Below, piece by piece: positions 1 to 48,298 of a DNA stretch of 64,000 nt. Where the stretch lies: the NCBI RefSeq assembly GCF_019670105.1, contig NZ_AP023032.1, forward strand, positions 4,348,001 to 4,412,000, read 5' to 3'. The translations under genes were made by a program, and so were the position numbers. The notes under the pieces were generated by a model. The model was given only the letters and a program-made list of their open reading frames with translations. It was not told where the DNA came from and did no database searches. This stretch comes from Agarivorans albus (GTDB taxonomy: Bacteria > Pseudomonadota > Gammaproteobacteria > Enterobacterales > Celerinatantimonadaceae). Numbering within the stretch: position 1 is the stretch's first letter; each line of letters begins with the position of its first letter.

Positions 1-1209
1 CTCATAAGAACTGTGGCCTTTTGGACTCCAGTTATTCGATACACCCATGTCGTGAGTGAATGAGATACCACCCTTATAGTTTTGCTCTGGCTTAGCCGGA
101 TCGAAGATCTCGTCATAAAAACTATATTGCTTAAGGAATTGTTCTAAGGTGTTTTTCACGGTCCACGGGTTTTGCTGCATCTCAAAAAACAGCATATCAA
201 CGGTTAGGTCGAGGGTATTCATCATCAAATACTCGCCTTCATTAACCACCCAGACTGGCTCGGTGCCATCAAATAACCACTGAGTAGAGCCGTAATAACT
301 GCGGGTAGCATGCGCTAACAAAAACTGCTGATGACTATTTAGCTTGCTCGCACGTAGCTGCTTGTCTGACGCCTCAGCGATAGCTGCATAGCTGTCAAAG
401 TGCTCTAGGCCGTAAGCAAGCACATCGGTTAAGCCAGTAAAATGCTGGGTGTAGTAATATTGCATAGCGCGGTTAAAAGTAACATTTCCGCCCAAGTAAA
501 AGCCTAGCGCTAAACGCAGCGTAACTGTTTCACCGGCTTTCACGTCAATCATTACCCCAGCAGTGGGGCCTAACATAAAGCAGTCATTATTTCCCATTTT
601 GCTCAAGGCACTTTGCACAGAAAAGTGGCTAAAAGCACGTGCGCCCGGGGTTTGTGTAGCAATACCGATGCTGTCACGACAGGTTACCCCTACCATGCCA
701 TTGGCATCGCCATCTAATAGTTTGTTCCAGCGTAATTCGTCACCTTGCAGGGCAAAAAAACCGGTCCAGTCTTTATCGGAAGCATTATTAAAACTCAGCT
801 CAACATATACTGCAGGACAGCTAGCTTGTTTAAGCTTTTTGTGTTCTGCCAAGCTCGGATCAGGCACTTCAAAAAACGGACTCAACACCTTAAAAGAAAT
901 ACCAGGTGCGGCAAACGTATCGCTAGCCCAAGCATAATCACGCTGGATATCGTCAAACAAGCGTTCCGTTAAGCTAGAAGTATCATCCTTTTGCACATAG
1001 CGTTCACTTTGATCGTTGGCACCTTTATAAAATGGAAACGCGTTAACTACACCTTCACCGTCTTGATAACCCACAAATACGTTACCGGCAAAAGGCGCTC
1101 CTAACTCCAGCCCCATTCCTCCATGCTCGCCAAACTCCCCTACTGTAAAACTCGCTAACGCGCCCATAGGCGAGTGGTGTGCATGAAAAAACTGCTGATT
1201 TTGTTCCAT
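1..1209 (-). CDS. GH52 beta-xylosidase (C-terminus beyond window edge)
   Basis: Glycoside hydrolase family 52 enzymes release xylose from the non-reducing end of xylo-oligosaccharides with retention. Translating the minus strand from the ATG at 1209, behind a GGGAG ribosome site, gives 403 codons open to the window edge. The N-terminus (AHHSPMGALASFTVGE) and the block ATRSYYGSTQ...WVVNEGEYLMMNTLDLTVD match GH52 as I remember it from Geobacillus XynB2. The first Glu of VNEGEY (about residue 324) corresponds to the catalytic nucleophile. The acid/base Asp lies in the missing part. No signal peptide is visible, so the enzyme is probably cytosolic and would act on imported xylo-oligosaccharides. 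It is divergent from the M4 protease, and a LacI-type palindrome lies about 100 bp upstream. Confidence 0.9.
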   Translation of the reverse strand, partial: MEQNQQFFHAHHSPMGALASFTVGEFGEHGGMGLELGAPFAGNVFVGYQDGEGVVNAFPFYKGANDQSERYVQKDDTSSLTERLFDDIQRDYAWASDTFAAPGISFKVLSPFFEVPDPSLAEHKKLKQASCPAVYVELSFNNASDKDWTGFFALQGDELRWNKLLDGDANGMVGVTCRDSIGIATQTPGARAFSHFSVQSALSKMGNNDCFMLGPTAGVMIDVKAGETVTLRLALGFYLGGNVTFNRAMQYYYTQHFTGLTDVLAYGLEHFDSYAAIAEASDKQLRASKLNSHQQFLLAHATRSYYGSTQWLFDGTEPVWVVNEGEYLMMNTLDLTVDMLFFEMQQNPWTVKNTLEQFLKQYSFYDEIFDPAKPEQNYKGGISFTHDMGVSNNWSPKGHSSYE

Positions 1210-1310
1210 AATAACTCCCAAGGAATTAAGGCGCCGGCAAGCTAAACCTCACCAATTACTTTAAATAATTAGCGAAATCCACGCATTTTAGCGACCAAGA
1301 TTAGTCAAAA

Positions 1311-1326
1311 CTGTTAGCGCTAACAG
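1311..1326. promoter_or_regulatory. LacI-family-type operator (CTGTTAGCGCTAACAG)
   Basis: This is a perfect 16-bp inverted repeat with a central CG pair, the typical shape of LacI/GalR-family operators. It differs at one position of its 14-bp core from the Xanthomonas xyl-box TGGTAGCGCTAACA, as I recall that site. It lies about 100 bp upstream of the GH52 xylosidase start. A near-identical core occurs at 7837-7850 ahead of the duplicated CBM cassette, suggesting one regulator for both. No LacI-family gene is in the window. Confidence 0.65.
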
Positions 1327-1339
1327 AGCTACAAAACAG

Positions 1340-1353
1340 TGTAAGCGCTTTCA
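1340..1353. promoter_or_regulatory. Second, imperfect LacI-type half-palindrome
   Basis: TGTAAGCGCTTTCA has the same central AGCGCT core and lies 13 bp from the perfect palindrome. The spacing could allow binding by two dimers. It could equally be the -35/-10 neighbourhood of the GH52 promoter. The call rests on pattern only. Confidence 0.4.
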
Positions 1354-1677
1354 TGAGATTTAATCTACCCAAGCTAGATAAGTGATTCAAAGAAATAAGC
1401 GGCAAGATTTGAGTTCTGTCATAAAAAGCTGGGGCTTTATGACATAAGGAAATAGCAGATTGAAAAAACGTAAAGGCATGTGGCAAAACAAACGCCGCAA
1501 GCGACTTCACCTTAGCTAGGAATAAGATGCTAAATAGTAGCTAGAGATTGCTAAGCACAGCTGACAAAGCCTTACAATAAAGCCTCTGAAGCCATAATCA
1601 AATTTCTATCAGTACTGTATATTGAAGACCCCAACCTTGCTCGGACGCATCAACAGGCTAAAAAGGATTCTGCGCCA

Positions 1678-3357
1678 ATGCCCCTATTCAATAAATACTT
1701 ATCGATAAAAATTACTGTTAGCCTGCTAAGCGCCATAGTACTCGCTGCCTGTGGCGGTGGAGGAAGCGAAGCTGCGGCCCCAGAGCCTGTGGCTCAAGTG
1801 CCGCAAAACAATATTGGCAATGCCTATATCCTTGATACTCACCCGGATGCAGGTTTGTTAACTGGCACTATAGCCATCACGCTAAACCAACAAACTGAAA
1901 ATCCTAATGCAGCTGCAGATTCGGTGTGGGTTTATTGGGCCGATGAAAATGGACAAGCCAGCGGTGAAGCATGGTTTAAAAGCAGCGCCAATAACCCCTA
2001 TTCTATTGCACTACCACCACAAAGCAGTATTCCAGCAAATACCAGCGCGCTAGTATTGCACCCAGCTAATGCTCAAGGTCTGTCTGAGCAAGGCACACTT
2101 GTTCAATTTCACGACTTTAAAGGTAATGCACAATTATCCGGACCAGGGGGGAGCTACTTAACCCCATGGCAATATGGCGACGACCGCCCACACATTGCCG
2201 TGCAACGCATTGATCATCAAGGCGGAGTATGTATTTTTGATAATGGCATAGTCAGTGTGGTTGATATGCAAAATCAAACCGACCCTCGTGCCCACGATGG
2301 CGCGCAAGCGGCGTTAACAGCCAACGAGCAAGCCTACCCTGCCTATGAGTTTTTGTGCAGCGACAACCCGGTTAATACTCACAAACCCTTAGCCGATGAT
2401 CAGGGCATATGGACTTACTCGGCCATTAATGACGCCATGTTCTACGGCACAGTTGTATACAAGGTATTCTTAGAGCAACTCAAAGAACCGCCTTTGGCAG
2501 ACAAATTGCGCATTAGAGTGCATTACGGTAGCCAATCCTCCCAGTATATTTTTTGGGATGGCGCTTACGCCAACTTTAGCGATGGAGTTCCTCTGTTTCT
2601 AAATTTAGCGACTCTCGATCATATCGCCCATGAAGTAGCCCACGGGGTGTTAAATAGAATTAGTCCGCTTGATGGATTTGAGCAGAACATTAGCGTAGAT
2701 GCGCAAACAGTGCATGAAGCCTTTGCCGACATATCTGGAGTCATGGTGAAACATGCCTTTAGCGGCGGTGATGATGTATGGGTTCATGGTGAAGAATCAG
2801 CCGGTTATACCCGCCAGTTAGATCAAATCGAAACAGAAGGTGGTGCTATTGCCAGTTATCTAGATTATGAGGATGCAGGAGACAACTACTACCTGCGTAT
2901 TGGCATGCTAAGTTACCCCTTCTACCTTCTGGCAAATAAGTGGGGAATTGCGCCAACTTACCAAGTTTATGTGAATGCTGCTAAACATTGCTGGCAACCA
3001 AACTTAAGCCTTGAAAGCGCCGCCCACTGTATCAAGCAACAAGCACTAGCGGCAGGTTATGCTGCTGATGATGTGAATCAAGCCTTTAAAACAGTGAAGA
3101 TAAAACTGTTTGATGAAGGTGTATTAAGCCACTATCGCTATCAAGCAAATGAGGAAGGCATTCAGTTTAGCGACAATAGCCGCAGCACCAGTGCGGTAGT
3201 GAGTTGGCATTGGGACTTTGGCGATGGCAGCAGCTCAAACTTGGCTAATCCTTCGCATGTGTTTGCTGAAGGCAGTTACCAAGTGGCTTTAACCGTCACG
3301 GATCAATCCAACGACCAAGACAGTTTTACCCGTACCATAGCGGTAAGTTCTAACTAG
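1678..3357 (+). CDS. Lipoprotein M4 (thermolysin/vibriolysin-like) metalloprotease with C-terminal PKD domain
   Basis: The 559-aa product begins with a lipoprotein signal (LAAC followed by GGGG), so it is probably anchored in the outer membrane. Residues about 45-150 form an Ig-like or spacer region without the usual FTP/PepSY propeptide motifs. The M4 core follows: IWTYSAINDAMFYG, then FWDGAYANFSDG, the zinc motif HEVAH at residues 318-322, and HEAFAD with the third zinc ligand Glu347. All key residues are present. The C-terminal 70 residues contain WDFGDGSSS and make a PKD domain, which often helps bind insoluble substrates. AAGGA lies 10 bases before the ATG. It presumably degrades extracellular protein. 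Confidence 0.85.
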   Translation: MPLFNKYLSIKITVSLLSAIVLAACGGGGSEAAAPEPVAQVPQNNIGNAYILDTHPDAGLLTGTIAITLNQQTENPNAAADSVWVYWADENGQASGEAWFKSSANNPYSIALPPQSSIPANTSALVLHPANAQGLSEQGTLVQFHDFKGNAQLSGPGGSYLTPWQYGDDRPHIAVQRIDHQGGVCIFDNGIVSVVDMQNQTDPRAHDGAQAALTANEQAYPAYEFLCSDNPVNTHKPLADDQGIWTYSAINDAMFYGTVVYKVFLEQLKEPPLADKLRIRVHYGSQSSQYIFWDGAYANFSDGVPLFLNLATLDHIAHEVAHGVLNRISPLDGFEQNISVDAQTVHEAFADISGVMVKHAFSGGDDVWVHGEESAGYTRQLDQIETEGGAIASYLDYEDAGDNYYLRIGMLSYPFYLLANKWGIAPTYQVYVNAAKHCWQPNLSLESAAHCIKQQALAAGYAADDVNQAFKTVKIKLFDEGVLSHYRYQANEEGIQFSDNSRSTSAVVSWHWDFGDGSSSNLANPSHVFAEGSYQVALTVTDQSNDQDSFTRTIAVSSN

Positions 3358-3379
3358 AAAAATGACCAAACGCTAATAG

Positions 3380-3410
3380 AAAAAACTCCCCGCAGGAAGG
3401 AGGCGGGGAG
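3380..3410 (-). terminator. Terminator of downstream CBM cassette
   Basis: CTCCCCGC and GCGGGGAG form an 8-bp stem, followed by TTTTTT when read on the minus strand. It ends the operon 5411-3515. A closely related hairpin (5703-5728) ends the other cassette copy, so the terminator was part of the duplicated unit. Confidence 0.8.
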
Positions 3411-3514
3411 GAAACAAAGTTGTAGGCTGAACCACTGATAGAGTCACACTAACAGCGGTTGTTGTCGGAGTTTGCTATGGGATTATGAGCAAGGCGCCTA
3501 CAGCTTGTTCAAAC

Positions 3515-4024
3515 TTAATTCACACTCGTTAAACGAATGTTCTTAAACGTATAACTCACGCCCGGCTCTGCTCCTCCAACAAAAAATGCAAAAGCCGTTT
3601 TAGGATCAGAGTGGTCTGCGGTAAAACTAATATCAATTTGTTTGGGTGTATTATTTACTGCAACATCTTCGGCAAAATATGTTGCGTAATCACCCGAATC
3701 TTTTTGCAACATAATAGTCAGTGGGCTTTGCTTGCTTGCGCTTACTTCAGCCACTATTTGATAAACCTGCCCTTTTGTCAGGTTTACTCTCGGACGCTTT
3801 AATTGGATCTGCCAAGGGTTACTGGCTTTGTCTTCTATGGTAATAGTGACGCTATTGCCGCTAAAATTAAAACGGCCAGAGCCATCGCCCCAACCATCGG
3901 TCCCGGCATTCACTGGCTCCCAACGTTTACCTCCATCTAAGGCAATGTCTAGGCTTGCGGCGTAGCCCGATGTGGCCACGGTTACTAAGCCAAACGCTAA
4001 AATAAAAGGCTTTAGAAAATTCAT
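3515..4024 (-). CDS. Secreted CBM4/9-like carbohydrate-binding protein (cassette B, gene 3)
   Basis: This is a small secreted protein of 169 aa from the preferred ATG at 4024, which has AAGGAACC in front of it. A longer start at 4051 lacks such a site. After a signal peptide ending near SGYAA comes one beta-sandwich domain: ASLDIALDGGKRW, GWGDGSG, WQIQLKRPRVNLTKGQVY, FAFFVGG and a closing YTFKNIRL. This resembles pfam02018 (CBM4/9) modules, which bind beta-glucans or xylan. There is no catalytic domain. It is clearly paralogous to 5841-6350 (same length) and more distantly to the lipoprotein just upstream. Its ligand cannot be told from the sequence. Confidence 0.7.
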   Translation of the reverse strand: MNFLKPFILAFGLVTVATSGYAASLDIALDGGKRWEPVNAGTDGWGDGSGRFNFSGNSVTITIEDKASNPWQIQLKRPRVNLTKGQVYQIVAEVSASKQSPLTIMLQKDSGDYATYFAEDVAVNNTPKQIDISFTADHSDPKTAFAFFVGGAEPGVSYTFKNIRLTSVN

Positions 4025-4055
4025 AATTGGTTCCTTAAGTTGGGTGCCCAACGCT

Positions 4056-4601
4056 CTAATAAGTTGAATTAAACTTAATATTGTTAAGGCTATAACTCAC
4101 ACCCGGTCGCCCTTCGCCAAACATAATTGCAAAAGCTGCATGTTTCTCATCGTTAGGCATGGTGAATTCATAGCTATATAGCTTTTTCTCTACACCAACT
4201 AATTCAGTGCGTTGGAAGTAAGTTGTGTACTCTCCGCCATCTTGCTGTACCGTAAAACTAAGGTTGCTAGGTTCACTGGCCGAAGCCTCCACAGAGATTT
4301 CGTACTTTGTATCTTCAAACAAATACAAAGGGCGTTTAAGCTGAATATGCCAAAGATTACTGGCTTGTTTCTTTATTCGAACATTGGCCTGTTCATTAGC
4401 GAGACTAAAATCTGCAACACCATCTCCCCAACCTTGCAGGCCTGCGCTTATTTTTTCCCAGTCTTTGCCATCATTGAGGGTGTAAGTCACCATGATTGAC
4501 GGAGAAATTTGTGCCTCTGGCTCCGAGGTGGTACTTGCACAAGCCGCTAAAAAAACAGCGCTAACAACAGCAATAAAAACATAAAAACCTTTCATCTTCA
4601 T
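4056..4601 (-). CDS. CBM4/9-like lipoprotein (cassette B, gene 2)
   Basis: The 181-aa product begins MKMKGFYVF and has a lipobox LAAC (cleavage before CAS), so it should be anchored in a membrane. The mature part is a single beta-sandwich of the same type as the neighbouring secreted proteins: GLQGWGDGVADFSL, WHIQLKRPLYLFED, YEFTMPNDE and YSLNNIKFNS. No catalytic residues are recognisable. AGAGGAA precedes the ATG. The gene lies 31 bp before cassette B gene 3. Its paralog is 6392-6949. A glycan-tethering role is inferred. Confidence 0.7.
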   Translation of the reverse strand: MKMKGFYVFIAVVSAVFLAACASTTSEPEAQISPSIMVTYTLNDGKDWEKISAGLQGWGDGVADFSLANEQANVRIKKQASNLWHIQLKRPLYLFEDTKYEISVEASASEPSNLSFTVQQDGGEYTTYFQRTELVGVEKKLYSYEFTMPNDEKHAAFAIMFGEGRPGVSYSLNNIKFNSTY

Positions 4602-4658
4602 ATTCCTCTTTGTTAAACCACGCTAGCACTTTAGCTCGCGTGGTTAACTAGCAATTAG

Positions 4659-5417
4659 TTACTCACAAGACCACTCAACCGCGCCAGCTGGCACTGTTAC
4701 TGTTTTCTCAAAAGCCACTTTTCCAATTTCGTAGCTAACGCTCTCGTTACCACGAATATCAAAGCTCATTAAATCGTTCACTTTTGTAATATCAAATGCA
4801 CCGGTGGCGTCCTGTATCGAGAAACAGCTCATAGGTACCGCTACAGTTGTCCAACCGTCGGCTTCAAGGTCGGCTAATTGCGCCTGGCTAAAGTAAAAAG
4901 CTTGGCGATTTTTGTAGTCTTCGCCGGCATCAGTATTGGTTTGCATGAAGATCTGGTGAGAAGTTTCGCTAGTGGTAGCCACCAATACCGACAGGTCAAT
5001 TAACAACAACCCATTTTGGTATTCGCTAAGATCTAGCTGGTTCTCTGCGCTACCCACAATAAAGTACACTTCAGCTGGGCCATCTTCGCCAGCCGAGAAA
5101 GTATCAACTTGCCAAGTTGCAATGCCGCCAGTCTCTTTTGCAGTTACCTGTAAAGAATCCGTTTTAGGGTAGCCTTCACCGCGTGCCAATACTTGGCGGT
5201 TATAGGAATCTGAGTTTGAGCCAACCATAACAGAGAAGTTGGTGGCTGCAGTTCCATCATTAAGAATAACTAAAGCTTCACTTACAGGTGGCTCTACCGG
5301 CGTCTCGTCTACTGGTGGCGCCACTGGTGTTTCTTCAATAGCATCCGTGCAACCAGCCAGTGCAACAGCACCCGCTAACATAGCTACTTTAAAAACTGTT
5401 TTTTTACTCATATTCAT
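4659..5417 (-). CDS. Exop_C-like galactose-binding-fold lipoprotein (cassette B, gene 1)
   Basis: This 252-aa lipoprotein (LAGC lipobox) has a Pro/Glu/Val-rich linker (ETPVAPPVDETPVEPP) and then one domain of about 200 aa. The segments GWTTVAVPMSCF and VSYEIGKVAFE resemble the galactose-binding-like C-terminal domain of marine GH3 exo-glucanases (Exop_C), but without any GH3 catalytic part. The linker suits a surface-exposed binding module on a stalk. The start is ambiguous: ATG codons at 5417 and 5411 are two codons apart, and the second has better spacing from AAAGGGA. It is first in its operon, and its paralog is 7020-7736. Confidence 0.6.
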   Translation of the reverse strand: MNMSKKTVFKVAMLAGAVALAGCTDAIEETPVAPPVDETPVEPPVSEALVILNDGTAATNFSVMVGSNSDSYNRQVLARGEGYPKTDSLQVTAKETGGIATWQVDTFSAGEDGPAEVYFIVGSAENQLDLSEYQNGLLLIDLSVLVATTSETSHQIFMQTNTDAGEDYKNRQAFYFSQAQLADLEADGWTTVAVPMSCFSIQDATGAFDITKVNDLMSFDIRGNESVSYEIGKVAFEKTVTVPAGAVEWSCE

Positions 5418-5840
5418 TTCCCTTTGAAATTGTTAAAGGTCAATTAGTGAATTCACCAATTGAGCCAGCGGGAGCCATGTTAACGAGGAAAATAAAATAA
5501 AAAACAGCCTAAACGCTATATGAAAAGGGATTCATAAAGAATCATAAAATAATACAAAGCGGGTCAAATAATCCGAAAAAATGTCGAGCAATAAACTCAA
5601 CAAGTACTTATAGAAGTGATGTTAACCTTACCAATAACCAATAAAACTAGGCTGCAAATAAAACCGTAAGCCTTTGTTATTAGGTGACTAAAACTGTTTC
5701 ATAAAAAATCCCCGCAGAAGGTGCGGGGAGTAAACAAAGATGCGAGCTAAGTAACAACATGTAGCTAATCAAGCTGTTACTTAAGTTGTCGGAGTTTGCT
5801 TTTGGGATTATTAGCAAGGTGCCCGCAGTTTTGTTAAAAA
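5418..5840. other. Intergenic region between the two cassette copies
   Basis: The half near 5418-5640 is AT-rich and should hold the promoter of cassette B, but I see no copy of the AGCGCT palindrome here. The half near 5700-5840 contains the terminator of cassette A and a tail (GTCGGAGTTTGC...) that is repeated at 3466-3510 after cassette B. This marks the extent of the duplicated unit. Confidence 0.6.
5703..5728 (-). terminator. Terminator of upstream CBM cassette
   Basis: CCCCGCA and TGCGGGG form a 7-bp stem with a 5-base loop, followed by ATTTTTT on the minus strand. It is related in sequence to the hairpin at 3380-3410. Confidence 0.8.
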
Positions 5841-6350
5841 CTAATTCGCACTCTTTAGGCGAATATTTTTAAAGCTATAAGTTACACCAGGTTTTCCGCC
5901 ACCTACAAAAAATGCAAAGGCCGCTTTGGAATCACTTTTAGGCGCTTTAAAAGTTAAATCAAATGTTTGAGCATTAGGGCTTACCGATAAATCTTCCGCA
6001 TAGTAAGTTGCATAATCGCCAGAGTCTTTTTGCACAATAATAGTTAATGGGCTTTTCTCAGTAGCGGTTACTTCAGCAGTAATATTATAAGTTTGGCCTT
6101 TCTCTAATTTCACTCGTGGGCGCTTAAGTTGAATATGCCAAGGGTTACTGGCTTTATCATTAACGGTTACCGTAGCGGTTTCACCATTAAAACTAAAAGC
6201 ACCAGAGCCATCACCCCATCCGTCGTCACCAGCATTAACCTGGTCCCATCGATTTCCACTATCCAAGCTAATATCTAAGCTTGCTGCTGTTACACCTGTT
6301 GCAACGGTAAACAAACCGGCTGCTAATGCTAAGGATTTAAGTAATGTCAT
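5841..6350 (-). CDS. Secreted CBM4/9-like carbohydrate-binding protein (cassette A, gene 3)
   Basis: A 169-aa protein with a signal peptide (MTLLKSLALAAGLF...VTAA) and one CBM4/9-like beta-sandwich: ASLDISLDSGNRWDQV, GWGDGSGAFSF, WHIQLKRPRVKLEKG, FAFFVGGGKPG and YSFKNIRLKS. It matches cassette B gene 3 along its whole length with the same motif order. No enzyme domain is attached. It should be released to the periplasm or outside as a free binding protein, and is third in the operon 7736-5841. Confidence 0.7.
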   Translation of the reverse strand: MTLLKSLALAAGLFTVATGVTAASLDISLDSGNRWDQVNAGDDGWGDGSGAFSFNGETATVTVNDKASNPWHIQLKRPRVKLEKGQTYNITAEVTATEKSPLTIIVQKDSGDYATYYAEDLSVSPNAQTFDLTFKAPKSDSKAAFAFFVGGGKPGVTYSFKNIRLKSAN

Positions 6351-6391
6351 GATTTATTCCTGTACTGTAAAAAGCTGTCTAATAAAAATGA

Positions 6392-6949
6392 CTAGTAGGT
6401 GGAATTCAGTTTGATATTACTTAGGCTGTAGCTCACCCCACGGTCAGCCTCGCCAAACATAATAGAAAAAGTTCCCTTCCTCTCGTCATTGGGCATGGTG
6501 AATTCGTAGGTATACAGTTTGCTATCGGTGCCAACCAATTCCGTACGATAGAAATAAGTAATGTACTCACCGTAATTTTGTTGAACAGCAATCACCATAT
6601 TGCTTGGCTCACTGGCAGAAGCCTCAACACTTAATTCATATTTCATATCTTCTAATAAAGCCACGGGACGCTTTATTTGAATATGCCAAGGATTACTCGC
6701 TTTCTTTTTAACTCTAATATTGGCTTGTTCATTCGCTAAACTGAAATCAGCAACACCATCTCCCCAACCTTGCAAACCGGCACTTACTTTGTCCCAGCCT
6801 TTACCATTGTTAAGGGTATAGGTGACCATCATTGGAATTGCGAATTGATCATCTTCGCTGCCGCTCCCGGAGTTTTCTGTATTGGCACACGCCACTAAAA
6901 AACAACTAGCAAGGGCAGTAAAAAAAACATAAAAACCTTTCATTTTCAT
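6392..6949 (-). CDS. CBM4/9-like lipoprotein (cassette A, gene 2)
   Basis: The start is placed at the ATG at 6949, preceded by AAGGAAT, giving MKMKGFYVFF, which lines up with the cassette B paralog. An in-frame start eight codons earlier is possible but unlikely. The product of about 185 aa has a lipobox (LVAC), a short Ser/Gly/Glu spacer and one beta-sandwich: GLQGWGDGVADFSL, WHIQIKRPVALLED, YEFTMPNDERKG and YSLSNIKLNS. Its function is inferred as cell-anchored glycan binding. Confidence 0.7.
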   Translation of the reverse strand: MKMKGFYVFFTALASCFLVACANTENSGSGSEDDQFAIPMMVTYTLNNGKGWDKVSAGLQGWGDGVADFSLANEQANIRVKKKASNPWHIQIKRPVALLEDMKYELSVEASASEPSNMVIAVQQNYGEYITYFYRTELVGTDSKLYTYEFTMPNDERKGTFSIMFGEADRGVSYSLSNIKLNSTY

Positions 6950-7019
6950 ATTCCTTATGAGCCATATATCCATAAAACGCGCACGGTAATGCTACTGTGC
7001 GCGCTCAGTCTAGCTGTGA

Positions 7020-7736
7020 TTAACTACAAGTCCACTCAACGGCGCCGTCTGGGATCATTGTTTCATCAGCTTCGTACTTCACTGTGCCTAGCTCATAGGT
7101 CACAGCTTCGTTTCGAATGTCTAAACGAAAGATTTCGTGAACGTTAGTAATATCGAAGTTACCTGCTGCATCTGGAGCAAAACAGCTCAGCTTAACAGCA
7201 AAGGTTTTCCAACCTGCAGATTCTTCAGTGGCTAGTAGATCTTGGCCAAAGAAAAATACGTTACGGTCTAAGTAGTCGGTTGCTCCGCCGTTAGTTTGCA
7301 TTACGATTTGGTGGCTAGTGCTACCAGTAGCGGTTGCGTTAGTTACTGACATGTCGAATAACAGTACGCCGTTCGCGTATTCGGTCATATCCATTGGCGT
7401 ATCTCCACCAACGATAAAGTATGACTCGCCGTGAGAACTGTTTGTGGTTACTTCCCAAACATATTCATCACCATTGGCAGCTGGGGCAACAGAGAAACCG
7501 TCATCAGTATAAGTTTCATCTTTTGCTAAAGCATTTTTGCTGTATGCAGGAGCGTGACCAACAAGTACGCCCATGCCAGATGCTGTAGCGCCATCATCGA
7601 TAACTACTAAGACATCACCTTCTGGTGGCTCTACTGGTGGCTCTACTGGATCTTCAATTGAATCGGTACAACCGGCTAATGCAACTGCGCCAGCTAACAT
7701 CGTGATTTTAAAAATTGCGTTTTTGCTCATGCTCAT
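7020..7736 (-). CDS. Exop_C-like galactose-binding-fold lipoprotein (cassette A, gene 1)
   Basis: This 238-aa lipoprotein (LAGC lipobox) has a short VEPPVEPP linker and one domain containing GWKTFAVKLSCF and VTYELGTVKYE, the same signature as the cassette B paralog. It heads the operon, and upstream lie LacI-type palindromes at 7837-7850 and 7968-7981. The GH3 Exop_C similarity is from memory of the family. The absence of a catalytic part is seen directly. The ATG at 7730 is an alternative start with better spacing to AGGGAG. Confidence 0.6.
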   Translation of the reverse strand: MSMSKNAIFKITMLAGAVALAGCTDSIEDPVEPPVEPPEGDVLVVIDDGATASGMGVLVGHAPAYSKNALAKDETYTDDGFSVAPAANGDEYVWEVTTNSSHGESYFIVGGDTPMDMTEYANGVLLFDMSVTNATATGSTSHQIVMQTNGGATDYLDRNVFFFGQDLLATEESAGWKTFAVKLSCFAPDAAGNFDITNVHEIFRLDIRNEAVTYELGTVKYEADETMIPDGAVEWTCS

Positions 7737-7836
7737 CTCCCTGTGAATTTGATAAGGCAGTAGGTCCGTGTTCCTTGTTGCCTATGGAAATTATCCTAGG
7801 GTTGGCCAGCAGCCAAAAAAACGATAATGATCACAA

Positions 7837-7850
7837 TGTAAGCGCTAACA
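7837..7850. promoter_or_regulatory. LacI-type operator ahead of CBM cassette
   Basis: TGTAAGCGCTAACA differs at one position from the core of the perfect palindrome ahead of GH52 (TGTTAGCGCTAACA). It lies about 100 bp upstream of cassette A gene 1, a distance similar to that of the GH52 site from its gene. Confidence 0.6.
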
Positions 7851-7967
7851 CGACATAAAATTCAATATCGATGATTACATCAACAAATAACTAAAAATAA
7901 TGAATCAAATTGCAAAGCTATTACTAAAAACATAACATGCTGTTTTTAAAAAGCTTTAATTCACTCA

Positions 7968-7981
7968 TGTAAGCGATTTCA
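7968..7981. promoter_or_regulatory. Weaker LacI-type site
   Basis: TGTAAGCGATTTCA resembles the secondary site near GH52 (TGTAAGCGCTTTCA) with one change in the core. It may be an auxiliary operator. Confidence 0.35.
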
Positions 7982-8136
7982 TTAACATGTTTGATATTTA
8001 ATCATCAAAAACCTTGAATAAAGTAAGCATATAAATTCACAACGCATTTACTAAAAATCACAGTATTCTAGAGGGTATATTTCGCAACTTTCATAGTGTG
8101 AAAGAATTTTCATAAGCCCAAAACAAAATCAAGAAA

Positions 8137-8165
8137 CAAAAAAGCAGAATTAATAGTTCTGCTTT
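8137..8165 (-). terminator. ubiK terminator
   Basis: AAAGCAGAA and TTCTGCTTT form a 9-bp stem with a 7-base loop. On the minus strand it runs into a T-rich tract, just downstream of ubiK. Confidence 0.75.
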
Positions 8166-8188
8166 ATCAAAGACTTAAAAATCGCTAT

Positions 8189-8443
8189 TTAATCTTTAGC
8201 GTTAAGTTTTTCTTCCATTTCCGCGACCTTTTGCTCCAATGCAGTTAGTTTTTCACGAGTACGTAATAACACCTGAGTCTGCACATCAAAGTCTTCGCGA
8301 TTAACCACATCAAGTTGACTCAACTTTGCTTGAATCACTTGTTTTACTTTACGCTCAAACTCATCGCCGGCATTTTTCAATCCTGGCGGCACCATATCGC
8401 TAACTTGCTTAGCTATCTCTTCAATTTTGGCCGGGTTAATCAT
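8189..8443 (-). CDS. ubiK: UbiK ubiquinone biosynthesis accessory factor
   Basis: This 84-aa protein has the usual length and layout of UbiK (formerly YqiC). The N-terminal amphipathic part is MINPAKIEEIAKQVSDMVPPGLKNA, and the C-terminal coiled coil (REKLTALEQKVAEMEEKL) is the trimerising helix. In Enterobacteria it binds the UbiJ lipid carrier and supports aerobic ubiquinone hydroxylation. GGAGAT precedes the ATG. It stands alone here with its own terminator. Confidence 0.9.
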   Translation of the reverse strand: MINPAKIEEIAKQVSDMVPPGLKNAGDEFERKVKQVIQAKLSQLDVVNREDFDVQTQVLLRTREKLTALEQKVAEMEEKLNAKD

Positions 8444-8511
8444 GGTTATCTCCTTTATTTGGCCTCATTGTATAGAAGCTGTTTTATTGGCTCAAGCTAG
8501 CAAGCTGACTA

Positions 8512-9249
8512 TTAGTTCTGTTTAGCCAGCACTGCATCTATAGCAAATATATCATCGAGTACGCCTTGCTCTCGCAGGCGATTAAGTGCTGTTTGCAAAC
8601 GCTTAGCTTGCTCCATTTGATTGGACGCCCGCGACCAGTACAAATTGCCGTAACGAGTAGCAAGGTGATACACCGGAGTAATACGTTCTGGCTCGATGTA
8701 GAGCTCTTGCAAAGAATGATTGATCGAGTAATTGGTGGCTACCATTACATCTATACGCTCCAGTAATAACATCTGAATACCTTGCGCAGTATCATTAAAG
8801 CTAACTCGTTCAATATTGGGATTGTCGTCAATATCAGGGCCATAAGCAGCGCCACGAATCACCCCCACCCTTTTGCCATTTAGCTGTTTAATGTTATTTA
8901 TTGGCTGCTCTCCGGCATTGGCAATAGCAACCACTTTCACTGTAACCACTTGACCTAAATCCACGGCAATTTGTTCAGCTTTAGGGCTAGCAAACATTAC
9001 CGCAAAGTCGGCGGTGCCAGATTTAATTTCTTTAATCACTCTTGGATAGGGCCGCATAACATTATTAAAGGGAAGCTCAGCTTCGCTGGCAAGCGCACGT
9101 GTAAACTGAACTAACAGGCCCTGTTCATGTAAGTCAGTGCTTTTGTAGCCCCAAGGCTTTACCAAGCTGGTCGAAAACTTGGCAGGTGCAAGATCTGTGG
9201 CCAGCACATTCCAATTCACTAACAGTAGTAAGCAACACAGTAGCCGCAT
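8512..9249 (-). CDS. Periplasmic solute-binding protein, family 3 type, orphan
   Basis: The preferred start is the ATG at 9249, preceded by AAGGG. It gives MRLLCCLLLLVNWNVLA, a plain signal peptide, whereas the longer frame to 9366 would run over the ybaK 3' end and hide that signal. The mature part (FSTSLVKPWGYK, RPYPRVIKEIKSGTADFAVMF, LNGKRVGVIRGAAYG) is a type II periplasmic binding fold like amino-acid-binding proteins (SBP_bac_3). No permease or ATPase is adjacent, so it may serve as a sensor or have an unknown role. The ligand is unknown. Confidence 0.7.
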   Translation of the reverse strand: MRLLCCLLLLVNWNVLATDLAPAKFSTSLVKPWGYKSTDLHEQGLLVQFTRALASEAELPFNNVMRPYPRVIKEIKSGTADFAVMFASPKAEQIAVDLGQVVTVKVVAIANAGEQPINNIKQLNGKRVGVIRGAAYGPDIDDNPNIERVSFNDTAQGIQMLLLERIDVMVATNYSINHSLQELYIEPERITPVYHLATRYGNLYWSRASNQMEQAKRLQTALNRLREQGVLDDIFAIDAVLAKQN

Positions 9250-9277
9250 CCAAACCCTTATATAGTTATATCGCCTG

Positions 9278-9751
9278 TTATTGGCTAAGTTTAGCAAACT
9301 GCGCACCCAACACGGTTTGCAACACACTGGCTTTAAGTTGCAAAGACAGTCCTCGCTTACCAGCACTTACCACTACTTCAGCAAATTGCTCGGCACTACT
9401 ATCAATAAACGTAGGCAATCGCTTTTTTTGACCAAAGGGGCTAATGCCCCCTTTAACGTAACCCGTGGTTCGCTCAGCAATTGGCACTTCTGCCATGCGC
9501 ATCTTCTTAATGCTAGCTGCTTTCGCCAGCGCCTTTAAATCAAGTTGGCCGCTTACCGGAACTATCGCCACCACCATGTTTTTGGGGTTGCTGTCGTCAC
9601 AGGCCACTAAGGTTTTAAATACCAGCTCTTCGGCTAAACCCAATTTTTCAGCGCTAGCTTGGCCAAAATTGGCTTGCTGCGGGTCACTCTTGTATTCCAG
9701 CAACTGAAAATCTTGTTTAGCTTTTTTAAGTTGTTGTACTGCGGGAGTCAT
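9278..9751 (-). CDS. ybaK: YbaK/EbsC family Cys-tRNA(Pro) deacylase
   Basis: A 157-aa single-domain protein. YbaK hydrolyses Cys-tRNA(Pro) made by mischarging prolyl-tRNA synthetase. Family features seen are the conserved Lys in ELVFKTLVA, VVAIVPVSGQLDLKALAK, and the GYVKGGISPFGQKKRLPTFID block that lines the active site. The length is as expected. AAGG lies nine bases before the ATG. It is close to ilvY (10 bp) and may be co-transcribed with it. Confidence 0.9.
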   Translation of the reverse strand: MTPAVQQLKKAKQDFQLLEYKSDPQQANFGQASAEKLGLAEELVFKTLVACDDSNPKNMVVAIVPVSGQLDLKALAKAASIKKMRMAEVPIAERTTGYVKGGISPFGQKKRLPTFIDSSAEQFAEVVVSAGKRGLSLQLKASVLQTVLGAQFAKLSQ

Positions 9752-9761
9752 CGCTACTACC

Positions 9762-10643
9762 TTAGTTTCGTGCGGCTATTTGCCAAAATCGCTGCATCAG
9801 CGGCTCGTGCAACCTTCTTGATAACATACAGATCCCCAAATCAAAAGGTTCAAGCTCTACCCCTACTGCAATACTTTGAATACGCTCTCGAACTGGGCTG
9901 TTATCTACCACTACCTCTGGCGCAATCCCCACTCCACTGCCCAAGGCCACCATGCTCACAATCGCTTCATGACCAGCAACCTTGGCATACACATTAGGCG
10001 TAATACGCATTGCCTTAAACCAATGATCAATACGTGCTCGTGCTGGGCCATGCTCCGGTAAAATAAAAGGGACTTGATCCCAAGCAATAGGGTTACGCTC
10101 TAACAACTTACGCACATTGCACGACACGGTAGGGCCAATAATCGATAAAGGAATTTTACTAATACTGGCAAAAGCCATGTTTAAGGGTAGCTGCTCGGGC
10201 CGCGCCGCAATAGCAATATCGACCTCACCATTGGCTACCTTATCTACCGCCATAGCAACATCACCCGTGGCCAACTTAATGTCGGCATTTGGGCAAGATA
10301 AACGGTACTTATCTAGAATATCTGGCAAGTGGCTATAACTGGCAGTAACCGAACAATATAAGGTGAGTTCACCAGCCAACTCGCTAGACTGCAAAGATAA
10401 ATCCATTTGCAACATACGCCATTGCTCTAACCAATTTTCGGCAAAGCTACGAAAGCGCTGCCCCGCTTGCGTGAGGTGCACACTACGTTTATCACGAGTA
10501 AACAAGGCACTGCCTAACTCATCCTCAAGCCGCTGAATCACACGGCTTAAAGTTGACGCACTCACATGCATAGACTGGCTAGTTTTAGCAAAGTGCAAGC
10601 TGTGGCTTAAATGCAAAAACAGCTCTACGCTTCGAACATCCAC
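9762..10643 (-). CDS. ilvY: IlvY, LysR-type activator of ilvC
   Basis: This 293-aa LysR-type regulator has an N-terminal winged helix (MDVRSVELFLHLSHSLHFAKTS, then STLSRVIQRLEDELGSALFTRD) and a C-terminal effector domain. It is divergent from ilvC, the classical arrangement in which IlvY senses acetohydroxy acids and activates ilvC from operators in the shared gap. AAGGAG lies 10 bases before the ATG at 10643. An in-frame ATG three codons earlier sits too close to that site. Confidence 0.92.
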   Translation of the reverse strand: MDVRSVELFLHLSHSLHFAKTSQSMHVSASTLSRVIQRLEDELGSALFTRDKRSVHLTQAGQRFRSFAENWLEQWRMLQMDLSLQSSELAGELTLYCSVTASYSHLPDILDKYRLSCPNADIKLATGDVAMAVDKVANGEVDIAIAARPEQLPLNMAFASISKIPLSIIGPTVSCNVRKLLERNPIAWDQVPFILPEHGPARARIDHWFKAMRITPNVYAKVAGHEAIVSMVALGSGVGIAPEVVVDNSPVRERIQSIAVGVELEPFDLGICMLSRRLHEPLMQRFWQIAARN

Positions 10644-10857
10644 GGCATACTCCTTAGCTAACTAATAAAATCACTATTTCACTTTCTGCAATACAATATC
10701 CCAAAATCATCATTTTACGCAATGCACCTTTCGGTTTATATTGAGCCCATCACGAGACAGGTATAAAGAAACGCGCTCATAAAAGAAGTGCATCGGGATC
10801 TCGTAAACACAACAAAACCATCATCATTTGATTAACGCTATTTTTACGGAGTCGAAC

Positions 10858-12339
10858 ATGGCTAATTATTTCAACACCCTAAGCCTACGCCAAAAGCTAG
10901 AGCAATTAGGTAAATGTCGTTTTATGGATCGCAGCGAATTTGCTGATGGTTGTAACTTTATTAAAGACTGGAACATCGTAGTTGTTGGTTGTGGTGCTCA
11001 AGGCCTAAACCAAGGTCTAAACATGCGTGATTCTGGCCTAAACATTTCTTACGCTTTACGCGATGCTGCTATTAAAGAGAAGCGTGCTTCTTTTGTTCAA
11101 GCTACCGACAACGGTTTTAAAGTAGGTACTTACGAAGAGCTTATCCCACAAGCGGATATGGTTCTTAACCTAACTCCAGACAAGCAGCACAGCAACGTTG
11201 TTGAAACTGTAATGCCACTTATGAAGCAAGGTTCTACCCTAGCATACTCGCACGGCTTCAACATTGTTGAAGAAGGCATGCAAGTACGTGAAGACATTAC
11301 CGTAGTAATGGTTGCACCTAAGTGTCCAGGTACTGAAGTACGTGAAGAATACAAACGTGGTTTTGGTGTTCCAACCCTAATCGCTGTTCACCCAGAAAAC
11401 GACCCTCAAGGTAACGGCCTTGCTATTGCTAAAGCTTACGCTTCTGCAACCGGTGGTGACCGCGCTGGTGTACTAGAGTCTTCTTTCGTAGCTGAAGTTA
11501 AATCTGACCTTATGGGTGAGCAAACCATCCTTTGTGGTGTGCTACAAACTGGTGCTATCTTAGGTTACGACAAAATGGTTGCCGAAGGCATTGAGCCAGG
11601 TTACGCCGCTAAACTTATCCAGTTTGGTTGGGAAACAGTAACCGAAGCACTTAAGCACGGTGGCATTACCAACATGGTAGATCGCCTATCTAACCCAGCT
11701 AAAATCAAATGTTTCGACCTAGCCGACGAACTTAAAGACCTAATGCGCCCATTGTTTGAAAAGCACATGGACGACATCATTGAAGGTGAGTTCTCATCAA
11801 CCATGATGAAAGACTGGGCGAACGACGACGTTAACTTGCTTAAGTGGCGCGAAGAAACTGGCGAAAGCGGTTTTGAAAACGCACCAGTATCTGACGTAGA
11901 AATCACTGAACAAGAATTCTTCGACAAAGGCATCATCTTAGTTGCCCTAGTTAAAGCCGGTGTTGAGCTAGCATTCGAAACTATGGTTGCTGCAGGCATC
12001 ATCGAAGAAAGTGCTTACTACGAGTCACTACACGAGACTCCGCTAATTGCTAACACCATTGCACGTAAGCGTTTATACGAAATGAACGTAGTTATCTCTG
12101 ATACTGCAGAATACGGTTGTTACCTATTCTCTCACGCTGCTGTGCCACTATTGCGCGACACCGTGAACAACATCAGCCTAGAGTACATCGGTAAAGGCTT
12201 TGAAGAGCAAAGCAACGGCGTTGATAACGCTCGCCTAATCGAAGTAAACGAAGCACTACGTAATCATCCTGTAGAAGTTGTAGGTAAGAAACTACGCGGC
12301 TACATGACTGACATGAAGAAAATCGCCGTAGGTGGTTAA
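10858..12339 (+). CDS. ilvC: Ketol-acid reductoisomerase, class II (IlvC)
   Basis: IlvC converts acetolactate or acetohydroxybutyrate to the dihydroxy acids of valine and isoleucine synthesis using NADPH. From the ATG at 10858 (GGAG upstream) the protein is 493 aa, starting [18 protein letters not shown]. This is the long class II enteric type, with a duplicated knotted C-terminal domain. The nucleotide-binding Gly motif is [19 protein letters not shown], and the catalytic acids lie in the KSDLMGEQT and ELAFETMV regions. The longer frame from 10828 lacks support. Codon use looks like that of a highly expressed gene. Confidence 0.97.
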
Positions 12340-42145: not shown

Positions 42146-45100
42146 ATGAACAAGTTAACAATCGCTCTCGCGGGGGCGACGTTGCTGTCTGCGCCTGTGG
42201 CAGCCGAATGGAACTTTAGGGGTACGCCAAACCAATGGCAATCCACTCCCCTTGCGGTAGTTTCAGGAACCGAATACACCACTTGCCAAAGTTTTGGTAG
42301 CAATGACCCACGCTTTAAAATCGATCGCTTTGGCGACTGGAACGAAGCCTACCCTAGCGCCGATGTGCGGGTTGATGCTAACAAGAGCTATAACATTAGT
42401 TTTTTTAGCGACAGCAAAAATATAAGCACTACAGAAGTTGCAAGCTGTGGAGAGATAGAGCCACCAGAGGATAGCTGGTTCTATCGCGGTACTTCCAATG
42501 GTTGGACTGCCACAGCCATGACCAGCAGCGATAACCTAAACTTTTGTACTACCCAGAGTTTTGCTAACGATAACCCACGTTTCAAAATCGACCATTATGG
42601 CGATTGGAACGAAGCTTACCCAACAGCAGACTTTATAGTAACTGGCAATGCTAGCTACCAGATTTGTTTTAACGCCGATTCAAAACAAATCACTGCAACG
42701 CCAACCACCACAGAAGATACTCAAGCCCCTACAGTAAGCGCTAATCCTGCAGCGGGTTCTTACACCCAAGCTCAGCAAATCAGCTTAACTGTTAGCGATA
42801 ATCAAGACAGTGCGCCCAATATCTACTGCACTACCGATGGCTCAATACCTACTCAAGCTTCACCGCTATGTAACAATGCAAACTTCACTGCTAGCGATGT
42901 CGTGGCCAGCGGCGTTGATTTAAGCCTAAAAGTACTTGCGGTTGATGAAAGCGGTAACTCCGCAGTGAGTAGTTTTGATTACACCATTAGCGACGCCCCA
43001 GCAGATACTTGGTACTTCCGCGGCACACCTAATGGTTGGCAAACCACTGCAATGACCACCAGCGATGGCAACAACTATTGCACCACTCAAAGTTTTGGCA
43101 GCAATAACCCGCGCTTTAAAGTGGATCACTTTGGCGATTGGACCGAAAATTATCCAAGCGCTGATGTAACGGTTAATCCAGATACCACCTACGATATTTG
43201 TTTTGATGCCAGCAGCAAACAAATCACCACAACAGAGATTGAAGGTGAAGACACAAAAGCCCCTGTGGTTAGCGCCTCTCCATCAGGCGGCCGTTACGCC
43301 ACCGCGCAACAAATTAGCTTAAGTGTTAGCGACAACCAAGATCCAGCGCCTAAGCTTTATTGCACCACCGACGGCAGCATACCCACTACCACACTCAGTC
43401 AATGCAACCAACAGAGCTTTACCGCCGAAGATATCCTAGTTGATGGGATTGATTTGGTATTAAAAGTATTGGCTGTAGATGCCAGTGGTAATCAGGGTGT
43501 AACCACCTTTAACTACACCATTGACCCTAACATCACCAGCAGCGGCGACTTCCGTGAAGAAAATGTTTACTTCATCATGACCGACCGTTTTGCAGATGGT
43601 GATACGAGCAACAACAACATTTGGGGTGACGAGTACTTACCAAATGGTGAAGCTGATAAGTACAACACGAATACCAGCAAAACCGGTCCTTTGTCTTACT
43701 ACCACGGTGGTGATTTCCAAGGCATTATCGATAATCTCGATTACATCCAAGACATGGGCTTTACCGCCATTTGGATTACCCCAGTGGTTAAACAGCCTGA
43801 AGGCCGCCGCTTTAACGCCAACGACGACTACGAGGCTTCCGCCTTCCACGGTTACTGGGGTTACGACTTCGATAAAATCGATCCGCACCTACACTCTTTA
43901 GGTAAAGACAATGATGGCTGGGCAGGTTTTGACGCCTTAGTGGATGCATTGCATTCGCGCGGCATGAAGATCATGCTCGACATCGTGGTAAACCACGGTC
44001 AGCCGGGTCAATCGGTAGTGGGCTCGAAGAGTAAATGGGCCGACCGAGCGCTAGAGATTAAAATGGATGGTCAAACCTGGAATTGGGAAACCAATGACCC
44101 TTACATGGATGGCGCTAAAAATGGCTTCTTTAGCTACGCCAGTACTGGGAATACCTGGTTGATCGACTTGCTCGATTTTAACGAACATGGTGACGATGAC
44201 CAAAACGCGACTAAACATCTAATCAATGTGTATAAGCGCTTTATCGACCATGGCGTAGATGCTTTCCGTATTGATACGGTATCGTATATGACTGCCGATT
44301 TCTGGGAACGATTCACCCTAGAAATGGATGCTCATGCTCGTAGTTTAGGCAACGACAACTTCTACATGGCAGGCGAAGCATGGACAGGCGATCGCAAGTC
44401 GGCGGTTGATCTAATCTACAACGGCCAAGGCAAAAAATTCCATATGTTGGATTTACATGGTTCTTCCATGGACTTCCCAGGTTGGATGGGCAAAGCCTTT
44501 AGAGGGGAAGCAGGGTTTGACGACGGCAATGGCTACGCCCGTATTGCCGGTGCCGATGGCGATGCCTCTGGCATTTACGACCCAACCTATCTAGCTACCT
44601 TTGTAGATAACCACGATGTTACCCGCGCTAACGGTGTATTGAGTGAAACGCAATATCTCAATAATCTAAACTTTATCTACTTGTTCCGCGGTCTGCCGGT
44701 GGTGTTTTACGGCACCGAGGTGCTGTATTCAAGCTGGCCACACTACATTACCACCACCGAAAAAGATGATGTAGTAGCACGTTGGATGCTGGGCTCAGAA
44801 GGAATTAACTTCGCCAAAACTAACCAGCCAACGCTTTATAAGCACTTAAAAATGCTAAATAGCCTGCGCAGCTCTTCTGAAGCCATTCAAAAAGGTCAGC
44901 AAATCGACTTATTGCTAGATGGCGATCATGCTGCATTTGCTCGTGATAATGGGGCAGCTGTAGCTTACGTAGCTCTCACTAAAGGCAGTGGCTTTAGCTA
45001 CACCTTTAATAACATGGCGAATGGTAGCTATCGTTTAATAACGCCAAATACCAACGCCGCCAGCTACAACGAGCAAACCATTACTGTGAGCGGCGGCAGC

Positions 45101-45151
45101 CACTCAGTAACGGTGCCAGCAAACAGCTTTGTGATTTTAGACAAACTATAA
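42146..45151 (+). CDS. Secreted GH13 alpha-amylase-type enzyme with repeated starch-binding modules
   Basis: A 1001-aa secreted protein (signal peptide to about residue 20). Modules in order: two WxFRGTxNxW starch-binding modules (about 21-100 and 110-190), a chitobiase C-terminal-like (CHB_HEX) linker domain (about 205-285), a third starch-binding module (283-370), a second CHB_HEX domain (about 375-465) and a GH13 barrel (about 470-1001). Catalytic residues are visible: Asp710 in FRIDTVSY, Glu744 in AGEAWTG, Asp824 in VDNHDVTR. It cleaves alpha-1,4 glucan. GGAAAGGA precedes the ATG. It is followed 75 bp later by the pullulanase, which shares its N-terminal modules. Confidence 0.88.
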   Translation: MNKLTIALAGATLLSAPVAAEWNFRGTPNQWQSTPLAVVSGTEYTTCQSFGSNDPRFKIDRFGDWNEAYPSADVRVDANKSYNISFFSDSKNISTTEVASCGEIEPPEDSWFYRGTSNGWTATAMTSSDNLNFCTTQSFANDNPRFKIDHYGDWNEAYPTADFIVTGNASYQICFNADSKQITATPTTTEDTQAPTVSANPAAGSYTQAQQISLTVSDNQDSAPNIYCTTDGSIPTQASPLCNNANFTASDVVASGVDLSLKVLAVDESGNSAVSSFDYTISDAPADTWYFRGTPNGWQTTAMTTSDGNNYCTTQSFGSNNPRFKVDHFGDWTENYPSADVTVNPDTTYDICFDASSKQITTTEIEGEDTKAPVVSASPSGGRYATAQQISLSVSDNQDPAPKLYCTTDGSIPTTTLSQCNQQSFTAEDILVDGIDLVLKVLAVDASGNQGVTTFNYTIDPNITSSGDFREENVYFIMTDRFADGDTSNNNIWGDEYLPNGEADKYNTNTSKTGPLSYYHGGDFQGIIDNLDYIQDMGFTAIWITPVVKQPEGRRFNANDDYEASAFHGYWGYDFDKIDPHLHSLGKDNDGWAGFDALVDALHSRGMKIMLDIVVNHGQPGQSVVGSKSKWADRALEIKMDGQTWNWETNDPYMDGAKNGFFSYASTGNTWLIDLLDFNEHGDDDQNATKHLINVYKRFIDHGVDAFRIDTVSYMTADFWERFTLEMDAHARSLGNDNFYMAGEAWTGDRKSAVDLIYNGQGKKFHMLDLHGSSMDFPGWMGKAFRGEAGFDDGNGYARIAGADGDASGIYDPTYLATFVDNHDVTRANGVLSETQYLNNLNFIYLFRGLPVVFYGTEVLYSSWPHYITTTEKDDVVARWMLGSEGINFAKTNQPTLYKHLKMLNSLRSSSEAIQKGQQIDLLLDGDHAAFARDNGAAVAYVALTKGSGFSYTFNNMANGSYRLITPNTNAASYNEQTITVSGGSHSVTVPANSFVILDKL

Positions 45152-45163
45152 ATCTCAATATTC

Positions 45164-45202
45164 CCACCTAGCCATTTTGCTCTGTGCGGAATGGCTGGGT
45201 GG
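45164..45202 (+). other. Hairpin between amylase and pullulanase genes
   Basis: CCACCTAGCCATT and AATGGCTGGGTGG form a 13-bp stem with one G-T pair and a 13-base loop, without a T tract. It lies in the presumed operon mRNA, 25 bp before the pullulanase start, and may stabilise or segment the transcript. Confidence 0.5.
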
Positions 45203-45226
45203 ATTAACTATGGAACAGTTAATATC

Positions 45227-48200: not shown

Positions 48201-48298
48201 AGGTAGCCGATGCCAATGGAGCCGTTAATGCTGGCAACGTATCTGGTAGCACCGTGGTAGAAGGCACCGCAGTTACCATGTTTACTCAAGCTAAATAA
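45227..48298 (+). CDS. Secreted type I pullulanase (GH13) with CBM48 and repeated starch-binding modules
   Basis: From the ATG at 45227 this is a 1023-aa secreted debranching enzyme (MKKTALVISLLAASSAAQA signal). It carries two WFYRGTSNGW modules, a CHB_HEX domain and a third such module, all closely related to the first 370 residues of the amylase before it. CBM48 follows (AVYSADSTTFSIWSPEHSNVK) and then the catalytic barrel. The type I pullulanase motif YNWGYDPRNFNIPE is present. Catalytic residues are Asp673 (FRFDLIG), Glu704 (YGEPWNG) and Asp806 (SAHDNFG). It hydrolyses alpha-1,6 branches. The ribosome site is weak (GGA), consistent with translation following the amylase. Confidence 0.9.
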   Translation: MKKTALVISLLAASSAAQADWFYRGTSNGWATSALELVSGSEYRTCQSFGANDPRFKIDRFGDWNEAYPSADVRVDANKNYEIRFFSDSKNITTTEVATCGDVEPPKDSWFYRGTSNGWATTEMASTDNVNFCTTQSFANDDPRFKIDHYGDWNEAYPSADYTVTGNASYQICFNAGSKAITVTPDDVTDTQAPVVTANPAAGSYTETQQISLSVSDNQDSSPLIYCTTDGTTPTAASSPCNDASFTASDVVSDGVDLSLKVFAIDASGNSALSTFDYTISDAPADTWYFRGTPNGWQTTLMTSSDGNNYCTTQSFGSNNPRFKIDHFGDWTENYPSADVLVDANSTYQICFNATTKAVSTVKQGCEPNCGSNSETLGAVYSADSTTFSIWSPEHSNVKVVVDGVEHTLQAVPDFAGYSQVYQVTVAGDLHLKPYTFLINGVQVRDPYGKMSQPGTGDYEAINIVMDMSRTEPVGGWAARPSLVEREDAVIYEVHVRDFTIDPSSGVSAGNNGKFLGMVETGTTINGVKTGIDHLKELGVTHVQLLPVYDFATCDGLPDSDPCYNWGYDPRNFNIPEDRYSAVPTNYEERAREFKTMVNEFHKAGIRVIMDVVYNHTYDDEMFENISGQYYTASDLSGTGNSINADVPMVSRMIQDSLEYWVDEYGIDGFRFDLIGIFSYQEVEKWGRHLNDTFADRKLLIYGEPWNGYATDPLEGQRVRYGTTHHLADENIGVFNGAFRESLKGSNDDTRTGYMFNNVDAAESGWAIYDGFQGSPYNPNDGRNSTWFRNYAADPEQSINYISAHDNFGLWDKVYLSTSSNVQQNSSHQVISFNPPSDLTYPKRVVNFGMGMILTSQGIPFVHAGDEFLRTKTNNQQISNPSAWNYSAHGGTHNTYNAPDSFNAIRWSNKADNIATFNYFKQLIELRRKHAGLRMNTSQEVAQYLNVSRPDQFGGQVITGHITDPSDSHNLFIVYNSGNNQTVSLPAGSWTKVADANGAVNAGNVSGSTVVEGTAVTMFTQAK

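Follow-up and report, generated by a model that had tools for sequence, protein, structure and literature searches.

A Partly Doubled Cassette of Predicted Enzyme-Free Carbohydrate-Binding Proteins Beside Xylan Genes of Agarivorans albus and Its Proposed Role in Glycan Capture

Introduction

Can a marine gammaproteobacterium hold polysaccharides close to its cells with small proteins that have no enzyme part? Surface glycan capture by enzyme-free proteins has been studied mostly in Bacteroidota. The question is raised by a 64,000-nucleotide stretch of the Agarivorans albus genome (assembly GCF_019670105.1, contig NZ_AP023032.1), called here the window, which occupies positions 4,348,001–4,412,000 of a 4.79-Mb single-contig genome. 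At 3515–7736, six uninterrupted open reading frames (ORFs) on the minus strand form two triplets of genes, named A, B and C, in identical order (Table 1). An earlier note on this DNA had described them as tandem three-gene cassettes with a role in surface glycan capture, and the tandem arrangement was confirmed.

In our opinion, it is reasonably probable that the cassette is the non-catalytic, glycan-capturing part of a xylan regulon. The arguments for this conclusion come from the folds of the proteins, their export signals, the constant gene neighbourhood and operators shared with genes of xylan degradation.

Domains, Folds and Export Signals

All four B and C proteins scored above the cut-off of the Pfam family CBM_4_9 (37.9–42.8 bits against 25.9), and the CBM4 beta-sandwich fold was found for them, in agreement with the earlier assignment. 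For the A proteins, the ExoP extra-domain fold was found, with folds like those of ExoP-C, CBM11 and CBM30 (the structure models covered C and A1). In the profile search with Exop_C (PF18559, cut-off 26.1 bits), A1 narrowly passed at 26.5 bits, and A2 reached 22.5 bits. No enzyme family of Pfam passed its cut-off in any of the six proteins, as the earlier note had claimed, and the profile search and structure check that it had proposed gave carbohydrate-binding folds.

The two copies are 64% identical in C, 67–69% in B and 47–52% in A (the ranges depend on the alignment), and B and C proteins are mutually related with 41% identity. Beyond these, C2 had a single relative in its own genome at E 0.001, namely the CBM4 module of a GH9 protein, and a search of the same genome with A1 gave no relative beyond A2. 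The start of C1 is most likely the ATG at 4024 rather than the TTG at 4051, and that of B2 is most likely at 6949 rather than 6973.

The lipobox Cys predicted in A and B is invariant in the alignments (10/10 rows for each protein). In A, a Pro-rich stretch directly follows the lipid-bearing Cys, and B is a short lipoprotein. The C proteins, as read by eye, possess a hydrophobic signal peptide with Ala residues at its end and no Cys.

Shared Operators and the Xylan Regulon

The cassette lies between genes for SBP9, YbaK, LysR and IlvC on one side and for GH52, XylR and an ABC importer on the other in all seven genomes of the genus, the own one included (XylR was labelled from Pfam; YbaK, IlvC and SBP9 are presumed labels).

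The cassette, GH52 and the importer genes have an operator in common. With one mismatch allowed at most, the motif TGTWAGCGCTWWCA gave seven strand matches at four sites of the window, against 0.42 expected and a maximum of four in 100 shuffles. Exact matches in the whole genome amounted to 17 on strands at 11 sites, and the motif read backwards gave none. In a slightly looser form, again with up to one mismatch, it was found ahead of GH52 and of the ABC ATPase gene in 7/7 genomes and ahead of distal A in 6/7 (not in G006), where it sits in a conserved block of the six-genome alignment.

Other exact sites of the genome are located at GH116/LamB, at a chemoreceptor gene, at GH10 with two LamB-like genes, at GH8 and at GH11 (for one LamB-like gene, the label comes from its resemblance to the other two). 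In the six other genomes of the genus (G001–G006), 24 places with exact sites were surveyed outside the cassette locus, and 20 carry the same genes as the own genome: the site is present at GH116/LamB in all six, at the chemoreceptor gene in five, at the GH10/LamB place in four (in G003, at the LamB-like gene), at GH11 in three and at GH8 in two. In each of two genomes of the sister genus, three of four sites are at the starts of LamB-like genes. Beyond the importer genes lies a LacI-family gene (L008:10402–11448; family read from the first residues).

Several observations weigh against the interpretation as a xylan-capture cassette. The proximal copy has no operator within three mismatches in any of the three genomes that possess it, so it would be transcribed by read-through or from another promoter; the earlier note had spoken of two consecutive operons, of which the two triplets are confirmed and the independent operons remain presumptive, with the operator only before the distal copy. 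Four of the 11 exact sites lie within the opening codons of LamB or GH11 genes, where coding sequence may explain part of the match. At GH10, the site falls within the longest ORF, ahead of a likelier start, and one of the two GH10 genes has no operator-like site ahead of it. Four of the 24 places in the congeners carry other genes (L087, L091, L099, L101). G006 holds A and B without C and without an operator ahead of A. Finally, the nearest solved CBM4s have beta-1,3-glucan or cellulose as ligands (the ligand of 1gui is presumed here).

Possible Ligand, Location and Function

Two positions aligned with Trp residues of the 1gui CBM4 are aromatic throughout, in favour of the capture reading: position 71 holds Trp in 21 rows out of 23 and Tyr in the other two, and position 113 is Tyr in 23/23. 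In both sequence and fold, the CBM4 proteins are best matched by CBM4s of a laminarinase and cellulases, and the fold of A matched the ExoP domain of an exo-1,3/1,4-beta-glucanase. These matches, the operator at the GH116 gene and an A-like protein encoded next to GH16, GH9-CBM4 and GH5 genes in genome G351 speak for the same capture proteins with a beta-glucan (laminarin, mixed-linkage glucan or cellulose) as ligand instead of xylan. A beta-glucan may be the ligand, but we consider this rather unlikely; the most likely ligand, in our opinion, is xylan-type chains at the cell envelope.

According to the proposed mechanism, xylo-oligosaccharides would release a putative LacI-type repressor from the shared operator, and endo-xylanases (GH10, GH8, GH11), LamB-type porins, the ABC importer, GH52 and A-B-C would then be produced. 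A, on its Pro-rich stalk, and B would be anchored by lipid, most likely in the outer membrane and facing outwards, and C would be exported as a free protein. All three would bind xylan-type beta-1,4 chains and keep the polymer and its fragments close to the enzymes and porins. Of the original idea of surface glycan capture, the sugar-binding folds, the lack of enzyme domains, the duplication, and the synteny and operators shared with glycan genes are borne out, and surface exposure and the ligand remain predicted.

In Gammaproteobacteria, lipoproteins of the outer membrane can be, and commonly are, turned towards the periplasm. Together with the LamB-like porins and the ABC importer of the regulon, this suggests another role, quite unlikely to our mind, in which A and B point inwards, C is located in the periplasm, and the three buffer imported oligosaccharides or pass them from the porins to the importer. 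CBM4 modules of solved enzymes, however, act on extracellular polymers, the importer already has its own binding protein, and a Pro-rich stalk suits outward display; none of these points is decisive. Three secretin genes are present in the genome.

The chemoreceptor-like gene (L045:8405–10473, genome position about 535,405), labelled from 32% identity over 332 residues to the MCP-signal protein of the window, makes xylan-linked chemotaxis possible by virtue of its operator. The operator motif at this chemoreceptor gene and the presence of binding modules without an enzyme also speak for proteins which chiefly attach cells to algal or plant surfaces, in attachment or biofilm, with a minor part in uptake. 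This seems very improbable, however, in view of the constant linkage to catabolic genes and the operators common to them. Capture of xylan for degradation remains the reading that we prefer.

Distribution and Evolution of the Cassette

Two cassettes were found in the own genome, G004 and G005, and a single one in G001, G002 and G003. Transposase-like ORFs (read from the first residues) occur near the locus in G003 and G006. In the trees of B and C, a single branch separates six distal from three proximal rows (100/99), so the duplication probably predates these species, some of which have lost it; transfer may be an alternative origin of the copy pattern.

The tree of A differs, with the distal A of G003 and G004 on the proximal side (supports 92/99 and 84/88, not starred). 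Synonymous divergence (dS) between G000 and G001 is 1.21 for A2, 0.21 for B2 and 0.14 for C2, and the ratio of non-synonymous to synonymous divergence (dN/dS) of A2 is 0.08. Positive selection on A2 was ruled out by this low ratio despite the high dS; the two values together point to allele replacement. Distal A (7020–7736; relatives in L036, L038 and L039) likely underwent an allele swap. A tentative picture, more conjectural than probable, may be drawn of a capture apparatus of Gammaproteobacteria free of Sus proteins, in which two lipoproteins, one stalked and one short, and a free soluble module would jointly pass xylan from the surroundings to xylanases and LamB-type porins, and the outermost A would be swapped among strains by recombination to alter the catch.

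A wider range of the cassette was sought in samples of genomes and was not found in them. C2 had protein matches in nine of 60 relatives (seven of the genus and two of the sister genus), and the A profile matched in 12 of 394 genomes of the order (seven of the genus, two of the sister genus and three weaker others). The B profile matched in two of 369 genomes of the class, the own one and one with a weak short match. Its search of genome contigs, from which records close to the window were possibly left out, gave one locus (NZ_BJEQ01000007, Agarivorans sp. Toyoura001).

In the sister genus (G009, G011), a lipoprotein with two A-like domains adjoins GH8 and GH10-CBM9 genes; that of G009 scored 47 bits with Exop_C (Pfam was run on G009 genes only, and the G011 ORFs have similar starts). 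In G338, a GH3 enzyme encoded next to GH43 ends in the A-like domain. G156 gave a weak match as well. G005 has an additional A-like protein with no Pfam match and no recognised glycan gene alongside. The same sister genus also has a solitary C-like protein (about 165 residues; L042:9336–9833 and L043:9021–9518), beside which no recognised glycan gene was found.

Features of the Locus

Table 1. Genes, operators and hairpins of the cassette locus (window positions)
Feature	Positions	Strand	Remarks
GH52 gene, runs off window edge, regulon member	1..1209	-	Pfam Glyco_hydro_52 E 2.1e-131; synteny
Operator, GH52/M4-like peptidase intergenic	1312..1325	.	motif match
Second operator, GH52/M4-like peptidase intergenic	1340..1353	.	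motif match
Terminator-like hairpin 3' of C1	3386..3402	-	
C1, exported CBM4 protein without lipobox	3515..4024	-	CBM_4_9 38.6 bits
B1, CBM4 lipoprotein	4056..4601	-	CBM_4_9 37.9 bits; lipobox Cys
A1 (proximal copy), lipoprotein, Pro-rich stalk, ExoP-C-like domain	4659..5417	-	
Terminator-like hairpin 3' of C2	5709..5729	-	
C2, exported CBM4 protein without lipobox	5841..6350	-	
B2, CBM4 lipoprotein	6392..6949	-	CBM_4_9 42.8 bits; lipobox Cys kept
A2 (distal copy), lipoprotein, Pro-rich stalk, ExoP-C-like domain	7020..7736	-	Exop_C 22.5 bits, under cut-off; 47–52% to A1
LacI-type operator about 100 bases ahead of A2	7837..7850	.	exact match; kept in 6/7 genomes
Second operator-like site ahead of A2	7968..7981	+	one mismatch; ahead of A2 in own genome only

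The hairpins that follow both C genes, and the stretch ahead of each, are alike between the copies and in most relatives, which agrees with the related terminators described before. Seven terminator-like sites occur in the region, a little more than the mean of 4.5 for shuffled sequences (standard deviation 2.0). The stretches between C gene and hairpin (3435–3514 and 5760–5840) are conserved in both copies and in most congeners. They are without an Rfam family, because a scan of 1–12000 gave nothing at the gathering score.

An M4-like metallopeptidase gene with a PKD domain (1678–3357) stands between the cassette and GH52 in four of the seven genomes, the own one included; it is divergent from GH52, and two operators are placed between them. 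Elsewhere in the window, at 42146–48298, two successive genes encode large alpha-amylase-family proteins with a similar domain order, a possible tandem duplication.

Comparison with Known Systems

The surface glycan-binding proteins (SGBPs) of Bacteroidota are the closest functional parallel. SGBP-B proteins, such as BtSGBP-B (7kwb/7kwc), are likewise enzyme-free, lipid-anchored and CBM4-like, and are encoded beside the enzymes and importer of their glycan, as far as described in the part of the source available (PMC7157763); the same part reports divergent specificity of SGBPs. The analogy drawn in the earlier note was a fair one, as the CBM4 proteins match, among others, BtSGBP-B in sequence and fold. 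Three separate small proteins are found here, whereas SGBP-B is one multi-domain protein; A and B have the lipid anchor typical of SGBPs and C has none; and the accompanying genes are of ABC and LamB types, unlike the SusCD transporter. Membership in a Sus-type system was ruled out, because SusD_RagB (PF07980) had no match in the genome; the positive control, Bacteroides ihuae, matched, and the search covered this one SusD profile and not SusC. By analogy, the cassette is comparable in function to an SGBP set and stands outside the Sus-type family.

Enzyme-free exported CBM proteins are known in marine Gammaproteobacteria: the "CBM only" proteins of Saccharophagus degradans and the carbohydrase-less CBM proteins of Teredinibacter turnerae, some of which were detected in the culture medium during growth on xylan or cellulose, according to the available portions of the sources (PMC2386152, PMC2699552). 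They differ in containing CBM2, CBM5, CBM10, CBM13 or CBM32 within larger proteins, and no fixed triplet is described in those portions.

In GH3 exo-glucanases, Exop_C is attached to the enzyme, whereas A carries this domain by itself on a lipid anchor, with no GH3 part. The xyl-box regulon of Xanthomonas has as its regulator XylR, which we take to be of LacI type, whereas here there is only a candidate LacI-family gene. Both systems are xylan-related, with a xyl-box-like operator at the xylan genes here: the X. campestris xyl-box TGGTAGCGCTAACA, as given in the available part of the source (PMC7748154), differs from the operator at 1312 in one of 14 bases and from the site ahead of A2 in two of 14.

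Compared with these systems, the distinguishing feature is that small modules form a fixed, partly doubled and co-regulated triplet, with no SusD match in the genome. A compact system of this sort, under common regulation in a marine gammaproteobacterium, with a predicted class of ligand and with natural relatives that have one copy, two copies or no C, would allow one to ask what such proteins add to enzymes and porins when bacteria compete for algal and plant xylan.
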